A DNA stretch of 64,000 nucleotides. Origin: Streptomyces venezuelae. Lineage in GTDB: Bacteria > Actinomycetota > Actinomycetes > Streptomycetales > Streptomycetaceae. The stretch is taken from assembly GCF_008642315.1 (NCBI RefSeq), contig NZ_CP029192.1, positions 2,542,001 to 2,606,000 on the forward strand, given 5' to 3'. Made by a program: the position numbers and the translations under genes. This document shows, in pieces, positions 52,397 through 62,740 of this stretch. The notes under the pieces were generated by a model. It saw only the letters and a list, made by a program, of their open reading frames with translations, made no database searches and was not told the origin of the DNA. Every line of letters starts with the position of its first letter. The stretch's first letter is position 1.

Positions 52397-53503
52397 CTAC
52401 CGCTCGGCGGCGGCGAGCTGGCCGCACGCCCCGTCGATCTCCTGCCCCCGGGTGTCCCGGATCGTGACGGGCACACCGTGGGCGGCGATGGCCTCCACGA
52501 ACGCCTTCTCGTCCTCGGGCCGCGAGGCGGTCCACTTCGAGCCCGGCGTAGGGTTCAGCGGAATCAGGTTCACGTGCACGGGCTTGCCCTTGAGCAGCCG
52601 CCCGAGCCGGTCACCACGCCAGGCTTGGTCGTTGATGTCGCGGATCAGCGCGTACTCGATGGAGAGCCGGCGTCCGGACTTCGCGGCGTACTCCCACCCC
52701 GCGTCCAGCACCTCCCGCACCTTCCACCGCGTGTTCACCGGCACGAGGGTGTCGCGCAGCTCGTCGTCCGGCGCGTGCAGCGAGATCGCGAGCCGGCACT
52801 TGAAGCCCTCGTCGGAGAACCGGTGAATGGCGGGCACGAGCCCCACCGTCGACACGGTGATCCCCCGCTGCGAGAGCCCGAGGCCGTCCGGCTCGGGGTC
52901 GGTGAGGCGGCGAATGGCCCCTGTCACACGGTTGTAGTTGGCGAGCGGCTCGCCCATCCCCATGAAGACGATGTTGGAAAGCCGAGCCGGACCCCCCGGA
53001 ATCTCGCCGTCCCTCAGCGCCCGCATGCCATCAACAATCTGATGCACGATCTCGCCGGTCGACAGATTCCGGTCGAGACCGGCCTGCCCCGTGGCACAGA
53101 ACGGACAGTTCATGCCGCAGCCCGCCTGGGAGCTGATGCACATGGTGACCCGGTCGGGGTACCGCATGAGCACCGACTCGACGAGCGTCCCGTCGAAGAG
53201 CCGCCACAGCGTCTTGCGCGTCGTGTCGTCGTCACAGCTGATGTGCCGCACCACGGACATCAGCTCGGGCAGCAACGCCTCACGCAGCTTCTCCCGCGCC
53301 CCGGCCGGGATGTCGGTCCACTCCGCCGGATCGTGCGCGTACCGCGCGAAGTAGTGCTGCGAGAGCTGCTTGGCACGGAACGGCTTCTCGCCGATGGCGG
53401 CGACGGCTTCCTTGCGCTCGGCGGGCGTGAGGTCGGCGAGGTGCCGCGGCGGCTTCTTGGCACCGCGCGGCGCGACGAAAGTGAGTTCTCCGGGTACAGG
53501 CAT
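52397..53503 (-). CDS. rlmN: 23S rRNA (adenine2503-C2)-methyltransferase RlmN
   Basis: RlmN is a radical SAM enzyme that methylates C2 of A2503 in 23S rRNA and A37 of some tRNAs. The 368-residue protein has the cluster motif [12 protein letters not shown] (C-x3-C-x2-C), [25 protein letters not shown], and the C-terminal catalytic Cys in DGACGQL. The protein is complete at both ends. rlmN is, as I recall, the integration locus of the S. venezuelae phage SV1, and here foreign DNA begins just upstream of its start codon. Confidence 0.96.
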
Positions 53504-54009
53504 GGTCCTTCCAGTGTCGCAGACGCACAGACGTCGACCAGGTCACCGCGCATTGATGGGGGTCGTCATTGGTCGTCGGTGGTCGCTGTGGGTCGCCCTT
53601 CGACGGCCCACAGACGGCCCGGCGCTATCCCGCTTGAGCTGGGCAAAGGGCCGGACTCACCCGCTTGAACGCTCGCCCCTACAGCTGCCAGAACGCACAA
53701 ACCGGTGGCCTGCTGCGTGTACGTGGTGACAGGCGTCTCAGCGGGGGAGGACAGAGGGTGCACGAATGGTCGCGGTTCCGCACTGCACTTGACCTGCCAG
53801 AACCCCGCCTCCGCATCAAAGGGATCGCCGCTCGCGCTCTCCTGAGCGACACACCCGAGTGCGCACTCTTGAGATACGAGGAGTTTCGACCCCTGACGCA
53901 CTGTAGACATCGGCAAAGACGGTCGAGACAATCTTGGTTCGCAAGGGAGGGCGTGGGGGGCAATGTGCGCTGACAGTCGACCCCACCAGGCATGGCAGGG
54001 GACTTACGT
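53504..54009. other. Boundary region between rlmN and the foreign module; no gene recognised
   Basis: This 506-base gap separates the rlmN start from the nuclease gene. It must hold the rlmN promoter (minus) and the ham promoter (plus). The base composition becomes visibly less GC-rich from about 53.8 kb. Several frames are open on both strands but have weak codon bias and no recognisable product. I could not find an att core or a tRNA. Confidence 0.5.
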
Positions 54010-54816
54010 ATGGCGCAGCAATCCTCGCCGCGCATTCGTGCCGGCGAATCTGCTTTCGCAGGAGCTCAGGGCGACGTCGCCTGGTCAGGCGTTCGGTTAA
54101 CGCCTGAGGTGATGGTCGAGTTAGGAGACGGTCCGTGGGCCGAGAGAGTGGGCGACTTAGAGTCCAGCGCTGCAATAATTGAGGAGCTTCGCGCACTGGC
54201 GACCACAGAGATGGCTGTGGAGACTGTGGGTGACCTCCTTGCGAGTGAAGCTGAACCGTTGCCTTGGGAGGTGGGCGAAGCCCTTGCAGAGGTTCTGCTG
54301 GAGCACTGGCACTCAGTAGTGTGGGTCTGGAACAACGCTCGGGATAGGCGTACCAGAAGAGCCAGCCTCCCTGGCGCGGACCTAGTTGGTCTTAGCGTCA
54401 TAGACGGTGCGGCCACACTGCTGTTTGGCGAGGTCAAGTCATCTGCGGACGCATCTGCACCACCAAACGTCGTGTACGGCCGTTCGGGGCTGATCCAACA
54501 ACTGGAGCGACTGACGGACAAGCACGCCGACCACTGGACGTTGATCAAGTGGCTTCGCGCCCGATGCTCCACGCAAGAGCACAGAGAGCTTTACAAGGCC
54601 GCTGCGTCCCGGTACGTCCAGTCTCAAGGACGCGACATCCGTCTCGTAGGCTGTCTCATTCGGGACACGAGTCCGAACGAAAGGGATGTCAGCGTGCGCG
54701 GAGCGGCCCTTGCCCGCACGGTTGTGGAGCCGATGAAGGCGCTACTGACTGCCTGGTATCTGCCAGTCACCATGGCCAGTTGGCCCTCACACGTGGGGCT
54801 TGAGAACAGTGCATGA
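54010..54816 (+). CDS. HamA-like (DUF1837-type) PD-(D/E)xK nuclease of a Hachiman/AbpAB-type defence pair
   Basis: The 268-residue protein has a helical N-terminal part and a nuclease-like core. The core includes EVGEALAEVLLEHW, then PGADLVGLSV with Asp124, and LLFGEVKSS with Glu141 and Lys143. This D...ExK spacing with GE-x-K is the active site expected of HamA/DUF1837 effectors. A helix with IQQLERLTDKHADHW follows. ATG 54010 has GGGGA eight bases upstream. The gene overlaps the helicase gene at its 3' end. Codon use is far less G/C-biased than in its neighbours, indicating transfer. An unrelated PD-(D/E)xK partner is the main alternative. Confidence 0.72.
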   Translation: MAQQSSPRIRAGESAFAGAQGDVAWSGVRLTPEVMVELGDGPWAERVGDLESSAAIIEELRALATTEMAVETVGDLLASEAEPLPWEVGEALAEVLLEHWHSVVWVWNNARDRRTRRASLPGADLVGLSVIDGAATLLFGEVKSSADASAPPNVVYGRSGLIQQLERLTDKHADHWTLIKWLRARCSTQEHRELYKAAASRYVQSQGRDIRLVGCLIRDTSPNERDVSVRGAALARTVVEPMKALLTAWYLPVTMASWPSHVGLENSA

Positions 54817-57800
54817 CCTCTCGTGGCTCGACGGATCACTCGACCCCGGCCTTGTCGAGCGCGTGAGCGCGCAAGCCCAACAGAGCCTGATCACCTCCGC
54901 TCTCAAGCCGGTACTGGCTGAGGGCTTTCTCCCTAACTCGGAAACTTCGGGCGATGCAGCCGACGACGTAAAGTTTGCTATGCAGTCGCTCGACCTCCTC
55001 GCATGGGACGCGATCATGGAGGACCCGAAAAGCGAGGAAGCACGAAAGCTGTGCGGTCAGGCATTTGGCATCGCGCGCACGCAGGTAGATTCCGGAATTT
55101 CAGCGGAATCGAGAATCTTCCTACTCAGGACTGCCTGTATCGGCTGGCTCTCTGATGAGACACCCCTTGCGGCACGCCTTCTTGCAGAGGTTGAAATCCC
55201 TACCCCCATACCGAACAGTGCCGGATGGGAGGAACGAATTGTCAATGGCACGGTTGATGTCTGGCTGCTCCTGCTACGCAAGCGAGGCTGGGCAGACCTT
55301 GACGCCTTGGCTTCAAGTATTTCCGCACTTCGTCGCGACCAGGAAGAATTCGAGGGTAGCTTCCTCGAAGCGGAAGGGGCTGATGCTAGGCCCGCCGCAT
55401 GGGAACTGGTCTGCTATTACCATCTAATTCGATGTGGCGAATTGATTGCAGAGTTCATTGAGACAGGCTCTGTCCTAACGGACGTGCGCGGAGAGCGACG
55501 CTTCGACGTCAAGGAACGAGCCGAAACTCACTGTGATCGAGCCTTGGAAGCAGCCATTTCATCCGGGAATGTCGACCTCGAAGAGCTAGTGCGCTTGCTA
55601 TCCGTTACTGGCAGTCAAATTATCGATAATAGCCTGTGGACAGTTTCTCGGGCAGTCAGCCCAGAAGTCACCAGCTTTGTCGAGTCTTTGGTTTCACGAG
55701 GGGCGGAGCGGCCCATTTTCGAGGCACTGCCACCCCAGCGTGCAGCACTCGCGGAAGAGGGCCTTATTCGATCCTCATTCCGAAGTGTCGTCGTCAGCCT
55801 CCCGACGAGTGCTGGCAAGACACTGATCGCACAGTTTCGCATCTTGCAGGCACTTAATACCTACCGACAGCAAGCAGGTTGGGTCGCTTACGTTGCCCCC
55901 AGCCGAGCCCTGGTGAACCAAGTGACGCGTCGACTGCGACGGGACCTGGGGCCGCTTAATATCAACGTAGAGCGAGTTAGCCCAGCCCTGGAAGTGGACG
56001 GCCTTGAAGCTGAAATGCTTCATGACTCTGGGGAGTCGCAGTTTGATGTACTAGTTTCAACACCCGAAAAACTTGATCTACTGCTTCGCTCAGGCTGGCA
56101 GGAAGAGATCGGTCGGCCGTTGTGCCTAGTCGTGGTCGACGAAGCACACAATATCTCTGACCCTAACCGCGGAATCAAACTAGAGCTTCTACTTGCAGGC
56201 ATCAACCGCGAAGCCCGGGATGCGGCATTCTTGCTCCTAACGCCATTCATCGACAATGGCGACACCGTAGCTAAGTGGCTAGACAGCACCAGTCAGCAAT
56301 CCATTAAAATGTCGCTGGACTGGACGCCAAATGATCGAATTATCGCACTAGCTTGCCACCAACCGGGCACGCGCGGCAATTACAGCATCCGGCTCGATCC
56401 ACTCGTCACAACAAAAAACACTTTGAGCACAAGGACTAGTCTGCCGATCGGCGGCAACCGGCCGTTGGGATTCACCAGTTCGGCAGCGAAGGCACAAGGA
56501 AAGTTGGCGGCTGCGACAGCCTCAGTACTTGAGCTCCGCGGGCAGACCATAACTCTCGCACAACAGCCAGGGTACGCATGGACCGTCGCCCAGCAGATCG
56601 GTGAGCCCCGCCGGGAACTACCAGAGCCGAGCCCCGACCTACAAGCTGTCGCTGCGGTAGTGGGCCAGGAGTTCGGCGCGGATTTCCCCCTCGTTGGACT
56701 GCTCAAGCGAGGTGTGGGTGTCCATCACGCAGGACTACCCGATGAGATTCGAGCCTTGACGGAATACTTGATGGAGTCCGGCGAGCTCGACCATCTCGTG
56801 TCCACTACTACTATCGCTCAAGGCGTAAATTTCCCAGTTGCCAATGTCGTCATGGCATCCCACCAGTTCCCCTACGGGGAAGATATGCCAGCGCAAGACT
56901 TCTGGAACCTTGCCGGGAGGGCTGGGCGAATCGAACAGGGTCAGGTTGGCGTCGTAGCGCTGGCGGCGTCAGACCGAGCGAAGGAAACAAAGCTACGATC
57001 TTTCGTTGGGCGGAAGGTCGCAGATCTCAACTCGACCCTGATCGACATGGTGCGAATCGCCATGGCTCAGTACGGTGAGCTAAATCTGCATCAGCTATCC
57101 TACCAACCAACTTGGTCCTCCTTCGTCCAGTTCTTGGCTCACACCTATCGCCAGATCGGCGATCACGCCGAGTTCGCAAATGAGGTAGAGCAGATCCTGC
57201 GAGGCACCCTAGGATTCCAAAGCCTTCGAAGTAGTCAACCTTCGTGGGCTGCGCAACTAACTCAAGGCGTTCGCGAATATTCGGAAAGAATCACTGGAAA
57301 GCCTCTTAGCTTGGTCGACAGCACAGGCTTCTCGTGGGAAAGCGTGTCTAGCGCCCTACGAAGGCTCAGCGAAGCTCGCATTAGTGCTCAAGTTTGGGAC
57401 CAGTCTCTGTATGAGGGAAGCCCTCGCCCCCTAGCGGGACTCGTGGGGGTAATGCTGGAAGTACCAGAACTACGGGAAAACTTAGTTCCCATTATCGAAG
57501 ATCACCAAGATCGAACTGGTGATTTCATTTCGCGAGTAATCCAAGATTGGGTTAATGGCGCTTCCATCCCCACCCTGGCGGCACAGTACTTCAAGAAGGA
57601 AAGAGACACTGACCTAGTCGCCGTGACGAAGTGCTGTCAGCGTCTCTTCAAGATGGCACCCACCGTCGCCTGGGGGCTTTCAGCACTTCAGTCTATGACT
57701 TTGGGTGAGGATTTTGAGCGTATGAGCGACGCACGTAGACGAGAACTTCGAAATTTCCCCTCATACGCCTTCTACGGTGTTGCAAACGAGCGGGAAATCT

Positions 57801-57994
57801 CCATGCGACTGCTGGGCGTTCCACGCTCTGCTTCTCCGCTTATCGCTGATGCAATCCTCGGCGGAAGCACCACGTCACTGCGCGAGGCTAGGTCTCGGCT
57901 TGCCGCCCAGGGCGAAGCCACGTGGAGTCGCGCCCTTGGGTCCGTAGGTAGCTCGTACTACCGCGTGTGGCGAATCCTAGATGGCGTTAACTGA
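54809..57994 (+). CDS. HamB-like superfamily 2 (Ski2-type) helicase of a Hachiman/AbpAB-type defence pair
   Basis: The roughly 1061-residue protein has a helical N-terminal region of about 300 residues and then a full SF2 core. The core motifs are PTSAGKT near 338, YVAPSRALVNQV, VSTPEKLD, VVDEAHN near 447, LLTPF, RGVGVHHAGLP near 637 (a Ski2-like hallmark), TTTIAQGVNFP, and NLAGRAGRIEQG near 703. A further 350-residue C-terminal region follows. Codons ending in A or T are frequent. The GTG at 54809 overlaps the nuclease stop by eight bases; TTG 54800 is possible. In Hachiman the helicase senses damaged or foreign DNA and holds HamA in check (known for the family). Confidence 0.78.
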   Translation: MHDLSWLDGSLDPGLVERVSAQAQQSLITSALKPVLAEGFLPNSETSGDAADDVKFAMQSLDLLAWDAIMEDPKSEEARKLCGQAFGIARTQVDSGISAESRIFLLRTACIGWLSDETPLAARLLAEVEIPTPIPNSAGWEERIVNGTVDVWLLLLRKRGWADLDALASSISALRRDQEEFEGSFLEAEGADARPAAWELVCYYHLIRCGELIAEFIETGSVLTDVRGERRFDVKERAETHCDRALEAAISSGNVDLEELVRLLSVTGSQIIDNSLWTVSRAVSPEVTSFVESLVSRGAERPIFEALPPQRAALAEEGLIRSSFRSVVVSLPTSAGKTLIAQFRILQALNTYRQQAGWVAYVAPSRALVNQVTRRLRRDLGPLNINVERVSPALEVDGLEAEMLHDSGESQFDVLVSTPEKLDLLLRSGWQEEIGRPLCLVVVDEAHNISDPNRGIKLELLLAGINREARDAAFLLLTPFIDNGDTVAKWLDSTSQQSIKMSLDWTPNDRIIALACHQPGTRGNYSIRLDPLVTTKNTLSTRTSLPIGGNRPLGFTSSAAKAQGKLAAATASVLELRGQTITLAQQPGYAWTVAQQIGEPRRELPEPSPDLQAVAAVVGQEFGADFPLVGLLKRGVGVHHAGLPDEIRALTEYLMESGELDHLVSTTTIAQGVNFPVANVVMASHQFPYGEDMPAQDFWNLAGRAGRIEQGQVGVVALAASDRAKETKLRSFVGRKVADLNSTLIDMVRIAMAQYGELNLHQLSYQPTWSSFVQFLAHTYRQIGDHAEFANEVEQILRGTLGFQSLRSSQPSWAAQLTQGVREYSERITGKPLSLVDSTGFSWESVSSALRRLSEARISAQVWDQSLYEGSPRPLAGLVGVMLEVPELRENLVPIIEDHQDRTGDFISRVIQDWVNGASIPTLAAQYFKKERDTDLVAVTKCCQRLFKMAPTVAWGLSALQSMTLGEDFERMSDARRRELRNFPSYAFYGVANEREISMRLLGVPRSASPLIADAILGGSTTSLREARSRLAAQGEATWSRALGSVGSSYYRVWRILDGVN

Positions 57995-58205: not shown

Positions 58206-58688
58206 TCACTGCCCGGGCGGCACGCCATGCTCCAAGTACGCCACCGCGCCTTCATGGCGAGCGACCGCAGCGGCACGGATGCGGCGCGCTAGTCGGGGGA
58301 TCGTGAGATCGTCCACAGCCTCAAGGGGATGAAAGTCATACGCCTTGATCTCAGAGGCTTGCAGCTTGATCTGCGCCTGAAGCTGACTTGCGAGGGTGCC
58401 GCCATCGAAGAGATACAGCACCTTGTCCCCCTCGGAAGGGCTAGGTGCCCAGTCGACGACGAGTAGGCGCCCGATCTCCGGCGCGATGCCGAGTTCCTCC
58501 TGAACCTCACGGACGCACGCCTGTAGCGGCGACTCGCCGGCATCCACGTACCCTCCTGGGATGTCCCGGTAGTCCTTGTACGTGGGCTCCAGGAGCATGA
58601 CGCGGCCGTGGTCATCAAAGAAGAGCGCACCCGAGGCCATCCGCGGGCGCGCCATCTTCGCTTCGTGTTCGTTCTCGGTCTCGCTCAC
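58206..58688 (-). CDS. Nudix hydrolase (Pif-like position in AICE)
   Basis: The 160-residue protein has a complete Nudix box, GGYVDAGESPLQACVREVQEELGI (G-x5-E-x7-R-E-U-x-E-E-x-G-U). Members hydrolyse nucleoside diphosphate derivatives. On the AICE pSAM2 a Nudix protein (Pif) prevents redundant transfer between donors, and its place beside AICE regulators here suggests a similar role; that is an inference. GTG 58688 follows the XRE gene by 19 bases. MARP at 58655 is an alternative start. Confidence 0.85.
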   Translation of the reverse strand: MSETENEHEAKMARPRMASGALFFDDHGRVMLLEPTYKDYRDIPGGYVDAGESPLQACVREVQEELGIAPEIGRLLVVDWAPSPSEGDKVLYLFDGGTLASQLQAQIKLQASEIKAYDFHPLEAVDDLTIPRLARRIRAAAVARHEGAVAYLEHGVPPGQ

Positions 58689-58707
58689 ATGACCGAGCCT
58701 AACCAGC

Positions 58708-59931
58708 TCACACCACTCGAAGCCTCTCGGCCAGGTCGGCCACGGAGCGGCTCGGCCGCCCACGAGTACCGCGGACCCAGCCGAGCACGATCTCTCGCGC
58801 CATGTAGTGGTGTCGGACTTGCTCCGGCGCCAGCTCTTCCGCGCCCAGGACCACGCTGAGCGCGTCGTCGATGCGGTTCCGAGCCGTTAGTGCCCGCGCC
58901 GTTTCGAGGTCGTGCCGCACTCTGCGTTCGACAGGAAGCCCGCTCGTATCGACCTGAGCCCCTAAATCCGCTGCGACCTGGAAATCTCCGAGCTCACCAG
59001 CGGTAGCCACCTTGTGGATCGCGACGTTGGTGGGGCCGAAGGCCGTCCACATGTGGTTTCCGTCCGTCCCGAGGCGTGTTGCCGTCGCCTCCGCCTCACG
59101 GAGGAAGGCTTGTGTTGTCGCACGGTCCTCTGCGCGAGCTGCGGCCATTGAGCCCGTCAGGAAGAGGGTTCCGTAGACGGACAAGTACGCGGGGGTCGCC
59201 TCCCCCAGCCCAGGCTCAAGGAACCCGACGGCATCGCTCACGAGCTGCACTGCGGTCTCGAAGCGTCCAGTGGACAGCAGGCAGTGCGTCACCGACCGGA
59301 AGAGCGATCCGATGACGACGTTGTTCCCGCTCTGCTGTGCAGCGGCGAGACCGCGATCCGCAGCCATCCAAGCAAGCTCGCTTTCCCCCAACTTGCCGAG
59401 GACCATCGCCGCCCCCTGGTACGTCAAAGCGAGCAGCGCGCTCGCTTCCTCCCGCTCCCCCCCGACGCAGGTGCGCACGGCGAGCAGGGCATCCGAGAGG
59501 ATCAGGGGCAACTGGCGGGTGGCGAAGCCGTATTGGGACCCCTGGTAGGCGTCCCACACCTCGCTCACGTCGGATCGCAGCGCGGTCAGACTCGGGGGTT
59601 CGCCATCCGCCGGCGCGCCAAGGAGTGGGGTCAACTGCCGGTAGTCCATGAGCGCTTCGCGTAGGGCAGGGACCGTGCGTCGCCCGCTGTCTGCGGACCA
59701 CTCCAACAGCGTCGGTTCGCCAATGAGGTCACCGATGGACACGTCCAACGCGTGAGCCAGTGCCCGGATGACAGAGAGTCTGTCGAGCTCGATGCGGTTG
59801 TTCTCCGCTTTGCCGAGCCAATCGGCAGTGCGCCCAACCAGTCCGGCCAGCACTTCTTGGGACACGCCTCGGCGATGGCGGTACCACGCGACCCGCTCAC
59901 CGATCGTCAGTTGCTGCGTCATTCCTCGCAT
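58708..59931 (-). CDS. XRE-family regulator with helical repeat C-terminus
   Basis: The 407-residue protein has an N-terminal helix-turn-helix (IGERVAWYRHRRGVSQEVLAGLVGRTADWLGKAENNRIEL) followed by about 330 residues of helical, TPR-like sequence. This type is common in Streptomyces mobile elements and chromosomes. It is co-directional with the Nudix gene, 19 bases apart, so the two form an operon. ATG 59931 is used; 59922 is possible. Codon use is closer to the host than that of the defence genes. Confidence 0.85.
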   Translation of the reverse strand: MRGMTQQLTIGERVAWYRHRRGVSQEVLAGLVGRTADWLGKAENNRIELDRLSVIRALAHALDVSIGDLIGEPTLLEWSADSGRRTVPALREALMDYRQLTPLLGAPADGEPPSLTALRSDVSEVWDAYQGSQYGFATRQLPLILSDALLAVRTCVGGEREEASALLALTYQGAAMVLGKLGESELAWMAADRGLAAAQQSGNNVVIGSLFRSVTHCLLSTGRFETAVQLVSDAVGFLEPGLGEATPAYLSVYGTLFLTGSMAAARAEDRATTQAFLREAEATATRLGTDGNHMWTAFGPTNVAIHKVATAGELGDFQVAADLGAQVDTSGLPVERRVRHDLETARALTARNRIDDALSVVLGAEELAPEQVRHHYMAREIVLGWVRGTRGRPSRSVADLAERLRVV

Positions 59932-60058: not shown

Positions 60059-60253
60059 ATGTCTCTGACGACTAAGGAACGGCACCAGGTGATGGTGGCC
60101 CTTGCGGAGCTCTCCATGGAAGTGGGCACCCTTGCGCAGAGGGCGCAACGGTTGGCATCGCCCGTCACCCCTCCCTGCCCTGCTCCTCCAGCTGTTGCAG
60201 GCGTCCGTCCAAGCGGCCCAGATGCTCACGCATCGATTCGATCTCCCGCATGA
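60059..60253 (+). CDS. Small protein, AICE region
   Basis: This 64-residue frame has an excellent AAGGAGG seven bases before the ATG at 60059. The first 34 residues (MSLTTKERHQVMVALAELSM, then EVGTLAQRAQRLAS) form an amphipathic helix. The Pro/Ala-rich remainder overlaps the 3' end of the convergent GntR gene by 89 bases. No family is recognised. The ribosome-binding site is the main support for it being real. Confidence 0.5.
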   Translation: MSLTTKERHQVMVALAELSMEVGTLAQRAQRLASPVTPPCPAPPAVAGVRPSGPDAHASIRSPA

Positions 60254-60533
60254 TCGCGGTGAACTCGGCACTTGGGGCCGATACTTCCTGATCTTCGGGG
60301 CTGCGAGCGCTCACGAAGTAGCCGCGAGTTGAGTCCGGCGCAACCAATCCCCACTTCGTGAGTAGCTGGACAGCCTTTGTCGCTGTCCCTGGAGCTACCT
60401 CAAAGCGTTCAGCGATCGCACGGACCGAAGGCAGTTTCTCCCCGATCTTCACCTTGCCGGTATTGATCTCCTCCCGCAGGGCCTCAGCGATCTGCTCGTT
60501 CACCCGTCGCGCGTCGTCAGCAGTCGGCGTCAT
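60165..60533 (-). CDS. GntR-family regulator (KorSA-like)
   Basis: The 122-residue protein has a GntR winged helix (REEINTGKVKIGEKLPSVRAIAERFEVAPGTATKAVQLLTKWG) and a short helical tail with no effector domain (REIESMREHLGRLDGRLQQLEEQ, probably a coiled coil). This is the KorSA type that represses transfer and replication genes in pSAM2-like elements. An upstream region rich in AGCACGA/TAGCAC half-sites is its probable operator. Confidence 0.87.
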   Translation of the reverse strand: MTPTADDARRVNEQIAEALREEINTGKVKIGEKLPSVRAIAERFEVAPGTATKAVQLLTKWGLVAPDSTRGYFVSARSPEDQEVSAPSAEFTAIMREIESMREHLGRLDGRLQQLEEQGREG

Positions 60534-61751: not shown

Positions 61752-62078
61752 ATGAATTGCATCGTTGCTGGTCATACCGCCGTTACCGCGAAGGAGTTCG
61801 CGGAACTGGCGCTGGGCCTGACTGAGTACGCGCCGGGGTTCGACCCCGAGCTGTTCACCGGCACGGCCAACGAGTTGGAGGAGGACCGGGCGGCACGGCT
61901 GGCCGTGGCCCGCGACGTGCTCGCGGACCTGCGGCAGGTCGACCCGGCGGCCGCGGCTTACGCCCGCGCCCTGCTGAAGGTGAGCGACCTGCCGACGCCG
62001 GCGCCCCGCACGCGTCGGGCTCGCCGGGGACGGCGGGCGCCGGTGTGCACCGCGCTGGGTCAGGCGGTGGCGGCATGA
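61752..62078 (+). CDS. Small hypothetical protein, first gene of a coupled AICE chain
   Basis: The 108-residue protein (MNCIVAGHTAVTAKEFAELA...) has an acidic helical middle (ELEEDRAARLAVARDVLADLRQVDP) and a basic tail (RTRRARRGRRAP). AGAGGAG lies nine bases upstream. The stop overlaps the GGDEF gene start by four bases (ATGA). Its family is not recognised. Confidence 0.75.
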   Translation: MNCIVAGHTAVTAKEFAELALGLTEYAPGFDPELFTGTANELEEDRAARLAVARDVLADLRQVDPAAAAYARALLKVSDLPTPAPRTRRARRGRRAPVCTALGQAVAA

Positions 62079-62740
62079 GCCAGACCTTGACGGCCCTGTC
62101 CGTCGCCCTGCCGCTCACGGCCGGATGGTCCCTGAACAGCCTGTGGCTGCGACGCCGGATCAAGGACACACGCCACGACCCACTGACGGGCCTGTGGACA
62201 CGCGCAGAGTTCGAGAAGCGCGCCTGCAAGAGCCTGGCCCGAGGGAAGCAGCGGGCGGTGCTCCTGCTGGATCTCAACTGGTTCAAGCAGATCAACGACA
62301 CCTACGGCCACGCGACCGGGGATGCGGTCCTTCGCGCGACCGGCCTGCGCCTGGGCGCGTGGGCGGACGCGCATCACGGCGTGGCTGGCCGACTGGGCGG
62401 AGACGAGTTCGCCGCCCTCGTCGACGTGGGCGGCACGAGCGACACCGGGACCGGCAACCTCAACGCGAAGCTGCTGAACCTGATCGGCCGACTCGAACAG
62501 CCCGTCATCTTCGAGGGGCGCGTGATCGACGTGCACGTGTCGATCGGGGCGGCCCGCTCCGGGCGGGCTGATCTGTCAGCGCTGCTGCGGCTGGCCGATG
62601 AGCACATGTACCGAATCAAGCAGGAAGGCGGCGGTTTCAGCATCGCCCCCGCACGCGAGCACGGCCCGGCGCTGGGCACGGTGAACGGCCGCCGCGCGGG
62701 ACGCCCTGGTACCCACTGCACAACGGAGGTGACCGCATGA
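62075..62740 (+). CDS. GGDEF-domain diguanylate cyclase
   Basis: The 221-residue protein has an N-terminal hydrophobic segment (LSVALPLTAGWSLNSLWL) that may anchor it to the membrane. A complete GGDEF domain follows: DPLTGLWTRAEFE, LLLDLNWFKQINDTYGHATGDAVL, and an intact active site RLGGDEFAALVD at 107-116. The inhibitory RxxD site that normally lies five residues before GGDEF is absent. It should make cyclic di-GMP, which in Streptomyces controls BldD and development. Coupled by ATGA overlaps to the genes on both sides. Confidence 0.9.
   Translation: MSQTLTALSVALPLTAGWSLNSLWLRRRIKDTRHDPLTGLWTRAEFEKRACKSLARGKQRAVLLLDLNWFKQINDTYGHATGDAVLRATGLRLGAWADAHHGVAGRLGGDEFAALVDVGGTSDTGTGNLNAKLLNLIGRLEQPVIFEGRVIDVHVSIGAARSGRADLSALLRLADEHMYRIKQEGGGFSIAPAREHGPALGTVNGRRAGRPGTHCTTEVTA

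Follow-up and report, generated by a model that had tools for sequence, protein, structure and literature searches.

A predicted Hachiman-like nuclease–helicase pair inside an element integrated at rlmN in Streptomyces venezuelae

A 64,000-nt stretch of Streptomyces venezuelae DNA (8.94-Mb contig NZ_CP029192.1, positions 2,542,001 to 2,606,000; hereafter the window) contains two overlapping genes for a nuclease and a helicase. The closest relatives of its proteins likewise mark it as Streptomyces-type. What does this pair encode, and how did it come to lie there? An earlier reading made from the letters alone (the sequence-only reading) had proposed an undescribed Hachiman/AbpAB-type anti-phage pair, acquired by transfer. 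We favour, with a probability of about 0.77, a two-gene Hachiman-like anti-phage module with a Hachiman-like mechanism. Intact genes, conserved catalytic residues, near-invariant pairing, purifying selection and carriage inside an integrated element are directly supported here.

The nuclease and helicase genes

Both open reading frames (ORFs) were found where the sequence-only reading had placed them, overlapping by 17 bp on the + strand, with the catalytic triad of the nuclease and the DEAH, GVHHAGL and GRAGR motifs of the helicase in place:

53992..54816, + strand: HamA-like PD-(D/E)xK nuclease, 274 aa (PDC-M23A), from ORF, PADLOC profile, alignment and structure comparison
54277..54279, + strand: nuclease E96 (GE of WEVGEALAE), invariant in 39/39 sequences and paired by hhalign with E83 (GDLGEILA) of a Streptomyces HamA
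54379..54381, + strand: nuclease catalytic D130 (GADLVG), aligned with HamA D117 (GDDVL)
54430..54438, + strand: nuclease catalytic E147-V-K149 (GEVK), aligned with HamA E135-A-K137 (GEAK)
54800..57994, + strand: HamB-like Ski2-family helicase, 1064 aa from TTG (PDC-M23B), from ORF, PADLOC profile and predicted model
55805..55822, + strand: helicase Walker A TSAGKT, residues 336–341 (sequence motif)
56138..56149, + strand: helicase DEAH box, residues 447–450 (sequence motif)
56717..56737, + strand: helicase GVHHAGL motif, residues 640–646 (sequence motif)
56915..56929, + strand: helicase motif VI GRAGR, residues 706–710 (sequence motif)

Nuclease residues are numbered from the first ATG; counted from an internal ATG at 54010, D130, E147 and K149 become Asp124, Glu141 and Lys143. 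The helicase has 1061 residues when read from GTG at 54809 and 1064 from TTG. The longer form is likely the correct one, because relatives of 1053–1077 aa (P0130, P0144, P0148) share its L-x-W-L start; the recorded protein (P0123) has 992 aa, and its nearest relatives among those listed have 993–1062 aa.

PADLOC assigned the nuclease to PDC-M23A (316.8 bits, E 2.2e-95) and the helicase to PDC-M23B (1333.4 bits), with HamB models next for the helicase (200 bits at most). Pfam found helicase domains in the helicase, and nothing over cut-off in the nuclease.

To place the nuclease, we aligned it (P0001) with 38 sequences picked by hand, independently of residue patterns, from the 120 relatives listed. 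E96, E100, D130, E147 and K149 were invariant throughout this 39-sequence alignment (A1). Ten of its sequences have a Pfam HamA match with E no higher than 1 (the best at 1.3e-5) and 11 match the PADLOC HamA1 model at the same threshold (best 1.1e-4), precomputed PF08878 annotation is present on 8 of the 120 relatives listed, and in the reverse direction Escherichia coli HamA weakly matches a PDC-M23A model (E 0.013). Profile–profile comparison (hhalign) of A1 with a 27-row HamA alignment (A2) gave E 4.3e-5 at 69% probability and paired E96/D130/E147/K149 with E83/D117/E135/K137 of the Streptomyces HamA. An AlphaFold2 model built from A1 (predicted local distance difference test, pLDDT, 87.7; predicted template modelling score, pTM, 0.86) yielded two Foldseek matches under E 0.001, both E. 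coli HamA. VIA-align likewise ranked HamA first (15.8; 238 residues aligned from residue 13 of the model on, root-mean-square deviation 4.4, 13% identity), followed by a HamA mutant (13.7), AbpA residues 232–537 (12.1) and, at 6.5 and less, the remainder, other nucleases among them. HamA thus leads the structural matches by a wide margin over any other family. The nuclease is predicted to adopt the HamA fold and, judged by its aligned residues, carries the HamA D-GExK catalytic motif. According to Tuck et al. 2024 (PMC12278908; cited here, like the other papers, from excerpts), HamA has a D-E(X)K motif, and E138A,K140A abolishes defence.

The same source describes an N-terminal helical domain (NAH) in all HamBs that is absent from close Ski2 relatives (PMC12278908); in the predicted model, helicase residues 1 to ~275 are all-helical and match the N-terminal part of HamB. 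The alignment to HamB begins at residue 3–4, that to the Hel308 and Pol-theta rows only at 272 or later. A HamB-type NAH is therefore predicted for the window helicase, alongside the HamA-like fold predicted for its partner.

We compared helicases by phylogeny as well. In a cleaned tree, computed by a quick method after 10 of 50 rows (near-duplicates among them) had been dropped, and with long branches for Lhr (4.7), AbpB (4.32) and others, the window helicase stood apart from Lhr and from three Streptomyces helicases that we ourselves labelled housekeeping, with support 87. The cleaned tree thus tends to place the helicase away from housekeeping proteins, as the sequence-only reading required, whereas a first, flawed tree left HamB unseparated from these rows. 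Several Streptomyces helicases (L048:6271-10655 of G269; L013, L019, L022, L023) formed a clade of their own near HamB and Lhr; the L048 helicase (1172 aa) is adjoined by a 293-aa gene without PADLOC match, possibly a further unassigned pair.

Spread, pairing and selection

The nuclease alignment, run against 84,980 species genomes, returned 149 relatives, of which the best 80 genome loci were analysed together with two from viral contigs. At 81 of these 82 loci, the helicase match follows on the same strand, starting at –7 to +72 nt relative to the nuclease frame end; in the exception (L133) it lies 1.7 kb further on. Counts of catalytic residues in the 82 loci are not independent, because the loci were found with patterns including those residues. 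Among the best 80 of 149 genome loci, 72 are bacterial and eight archaeal; only 10 belong to Actinomycetota, which argues against the actinobacterial branch that had been suggested. As many of these loci are metagenome bins, single taxon labels may be wrong.

Within the genus, a full-length M23B helicase was present in 7 of 392 genomes (own included), each time with M23A (7/7). A further genome (G350) retains the helicase gene as remnant fragments only (L043:8610-9896). In 296 Actinomycetota genomes, the PDC-M23A profile matched three times: in the window itself, partially at E 6.9e-10, and at E 5.3e-4. Scans of a single genome and of 296 genomes with PF08878 gave no match, controls included, and are thus uninformative about absence; tblastn of the helicase (P0002) against the genome contig collection found no relative.

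GC content at third codon positions (GC3) is 0.65 for the window nuclease and 0.58 for the helicase. The genus has six more full-length copies, five with a GC3 of 0.82–0.95 and that of G207 with 0.51–0.54, so that low GC is a mark of the window and G207 copies and not of the M23 family. The pair evolves under purifying selection among five related copies of the genus; in G007, G256 and G306 the nuclease start was probably placed upstream of the true one, so that some nuclease values may be inflated.

Two contigs of a viral collection, L095 (IMGVR_UViG_2846856033_000001) and L096 (IMGVR_UViG_3300029892_000179), encode M23A followed by M23B, the latter as a partial match of 164 bits in L096; phages or proviruses may therefore carry the pair. 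A plasmid home was considered and rejected: the nuclease had no match in 72,556 plasmid records, and the helicase matched 167, with 80% or more of its length covered in a single record. Eight of these 167 were inspected, and five have an annotated HamA or DUF1837 gene beside the helicase. On Rhizobium etli plasmid pRetMIM1e (L085:1575-5547) an M23B-like helicase (591 bits) lies downstream of ThiF and Mov34-type genes, its 284-aa partner lacking a PADLOC match and showing QVK in place of the M23A EVK. On a Bradyrhizobium barranii plasmid (L094:1-5121), a helicase whose core is HamB-like, but without a gene annotated as HamA, is preceded by multiubiquitin, ThiF and DUF6527 genes.

The element at rlmN and alternative explanations

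The sequence-only reading had put the pair beside an actinomycete integrative and conjugative element (AICE). Repeat searches revealed instead that 42-bp direct repeats enclose it, so that it lies inside the element, next to the left attachment site (attL):

52397..53503, – strand: rlmN, host gene with the attachment site in its 5′ end (TIGR00048, 318.9 bits, cut-off 290)
53483..53524, unstranded: attL, 42-bp perfect direct repeat over the rlmN start (repeat search)
58206..58763, – strand: NUDIX protein of the element (Pfam NUDIX)
58708..59931, – strand: helix-turn-helix regulator of the element (38% identity to that of the G207 element)
60165..60533, – strand: GntR regulator of the element (Pfam GntR)
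62045..62740, + strand: GGDEF protein of the element, also in the G207 element
extended 80708-80749 (G000:C1:2622708-2622749): right copy of the 42-bp repeat, outside the window (repeat search)

Searching the whole genome with rlmN recovered the same two copies of the repeat stretch. A tyrosine integrase (PF00589) and an HTH_17 protein, a putative excisionase, adjoin the right copy. In locus L070, the right flank of the element is joined directly to the rlmN site, with no gap and at 87% identity. Right-hand sequence was found 0–809 bases from the rlmN match in 14 of 24 same-genus rlmN loci and nowhere within the 1.5-kb flank in the other 10; same-order loci had it in 4 of 5. The repeats, the integrase and the empty site in L070 establish a 27.3-kb element integrated at rlmN, a published AICE integration site (PMC9513070). 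With tyrosine integrase, excisionase candidate, direct repeats and an empty site in relatives, it has these features of an AICE. For the TraB transfer protein and Rep, FtsK/SpoIIIE and TraB matches remained under cut-off and a candidate (L050:17785-18765) had no match; a 532-aa ORF also lies in the element (extended 76645-78243). Searches of the window and of two stretches on its right side yielded no tRNA.

In 2-kb windows, GC is lowest over the pair (0.56–0.59), rises to 0.65–0.67 over the regulator genes just right of it and to ~0.70 beyond 61 kb, and is 0.66–0.76 in most of the window. Both the low GC and the arrival by transfer that had been claimed for the pair therefore hold, the inserted element explaining the low-GC genes as its cargo. 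In G005 (G005:C1:5569639-5569678, ~12.9 kb from rlmN) and G007 (G007:C1:7887143-7887182, ~4.4 kb from rlmN), the rlmN 5′ repeat recurs as a second, partial copy, which suggests other elements at the same site.

Genome G207 has a related element of 26.0 kb, bounded by 45-bp repeats. One of these repeats lies where a tRNA-Pro gene has its 3′ end, and next to this tRNA is an integrase-like match (27% identity). The helix-turn-helix regulator (38%) and the GGDEF gene (46%) are common to this element and the one in the window; the GGDEF gene, for a diguanylate cyclase, is kept in both (window 62045-62740, L031:7832-8482).

The G207 element also carries its own M23 pair (helicase 38%, nuclease 28% identical to the window's). 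That two different AICE-like elements, at rlmN and tRNA-Pro, hold such divergent pairs inside direct repeats would fit a pair serving the element itself, by destroying the DNA of plasmids, phages or elements that compete with it, or by killing cells that lose the element, with the same chemistry. We consider this unlikely: among the seven full-length copies of the genus, AICE-like carriage is established for the window and G207 only, two others (G003 as L097, G256 as L099) have other PADLOC-type genes nearby, and defence systems often travel on mobile elements.

Still less likely, in our judgement, is a helicase–nuclease of DNA repair or recombination in a Hel308/Pol-theta-like, non-immune role. 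Z-scores of the helicase model for Hel308 and Pol-theta (22–25, Hel308 up to 25.4) nearly equal those for HamB (24.0–27.3), and the best NCBIfam helicase matches are of Hel308 type, far under their cut-offs. The Hel308 and Pol-theta rows, however, leave the N-terminal region uncovered, and the patchy presence in the genus, the mobile location, the HamA-fold partner at nearly every locus and the PADLOC candidate status speak against a repair role.

Besides the Hel308 scores, a number of observations weigh against a Hachiman-like module. The window nuclease has no PF08878/DUF1837 or PADLOC HamA match at E up to 10 and matches PDC-M23A models only (HMMER filters discard most matches above E 0.1), so that the HamA profile match hoped for from the sequence alone came only from its relatives. 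The profile–profile probability is modest, and sequence searches of the PDB found HamA neither with the nuclease alone nor with the A1 family profile. For the helicase, 6 of 50 structural rows, all Brr2, begin before residue 124 (31–123, with 569–589 residues aligned), and ~85 C-terminal HamB residues have no counterpart. HamB plus M23B against four outgroup rows has support 87, HamB alone is not rejected (approximately unbiased test, p-AU 0.098), and the cleaned tree, with its quick method and several long branches, leaves M23B either among or outside HamB. A first tree, superseded by the cleaned one, included one or more rows translated wrongly (branch length 6) and mixed HamB, at low support, with outgroup rows such as Lhr. 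Moreover, dS (synonymous divergence) of the window copies versus the others is near saturation, and in 26 of 82 loci the flanks contain relatives of PADLOC-checked type I restriction genes (at least two kinds in 20; 27 with one seed not PADLOC-checked), a count without control.

Least likely is a canonical HamAB or AbpAB system: gene order, overlap, motifs and the HamB scores of up to 200 bits are shared, but profile scores (PDC-M23 over HamB models by 1333 to 200 bits for the helicase, and no HamA model match for the nuclease) and architecture (nuclease model matching AbpA residues 232–537 only; E. coli AbpB of 729 aa) led us to reject it.

The proposed module and known systems

The Hachiman-like module that we prefer may work as follows. 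The N-terminal helical domain of the helicase (B) would hold the nuclease (A) inactive while B scans DNA. Single-stranded DNA ends, or damaged or recombining DNA as arising from phage replication, would trigger B to hydrolyse ATP and to free or activate A, presumably a metal-dependent DNase (E96, D130, E147, K149), which would destroy DNA and abort infection. Complex formation, DNA-damage sensing, DNA destruction and phage defence are inferred here from what Tuck et al. 2024 report for HamAB (PMC12278908). A testable mechanism is thereby assigned to a widespread defence candidate that its database lists without function.

Because the window nuclease fails the HamA profile test, the pair is not classed as canonical Hachiman. 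We lean slightly towards PDC-M23 being a third deep Hachiman branch, present in archaea and in many bacterial phyla, with an intact HamA beyond the reach of HamA profiles and a HamB-like sensor lacking the HamB C-terminal part, different AICEs loading different M23 pairs. If true, this would show which parts genome-integrity sensing requires (NAH, helicase core, E/D/E/K site) and which it can do without. HamA profiles appear to overlook a branch whose active site is intact, and Hachiman may therefore be undercounted. HamB with and without its C-terminal end also offers a natural comparison of which parts sense DNA integrity.

One of the nearest known systems is PDC-M23 itself, to which both proteins belong at the very high scores given above. 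The pair is hence not undescribed in the sense first claimed, since PADLOC already lists it as a candidate. In a limited search of open papers, the label PDC-M23 was not found, nor was a description of an M23 branch in literature on Hachiman, its subtypes or Hachiman in Streptomyces.

AbpAB of E. coli K-12 differs in both partners: AbpA has an extra N-terminal domain and a catalytically dead HamA part (PMC12278908), whereas the 274-aa window nuclease lacks that domain and has an intact HamA-like site, and AbpB is 729 aa long versus 1064 aa for the window helicase. Of the original Hachiman/AbpAB-type label, the Hachiman-type nuclease and the Ski2-like helicase thus stand, and AbpAB falls. Hachiman type II is defined in PADLOC by the DUF3223 gene HamC (PMC8565338), whereas the window pair is followed downstream by a NUDIX gene. 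The AICE03 family of Streptomyces RLB3-6 resembles the present element as a Streptomyces AICE integrating at rlmN, but has 11-nt repeats (PMC9513070) versus 42 bp and a HamA/HamB-like cargo pair here.

Hachiman HamAB (E. coli; PDB 8vx9, 8vxa, 8vxy) shares the two-gene order, the HamA fold with aligned E/D/E/K residues, the Ski2 motifs and the NAH-like N-terminal helical region. It differs in that the window nuclease lies below HamA profile detection, with 12–14% identity in structural alignments, and in the end of the helicase, a protein that falls ~110 residues short of E. coli HamB (L087) in length. The predicted helicase model shows no strand beyond residue 723 and, in whole-model alignment, ends opposite HamB ~1090, with nothing beyond. 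As the HamB C terminus forms a barrel-like oligonucleotide/oligosaccharide-binding (OB)-type fold (PMC12278908), the part missing from the window helicase may be this barrel.

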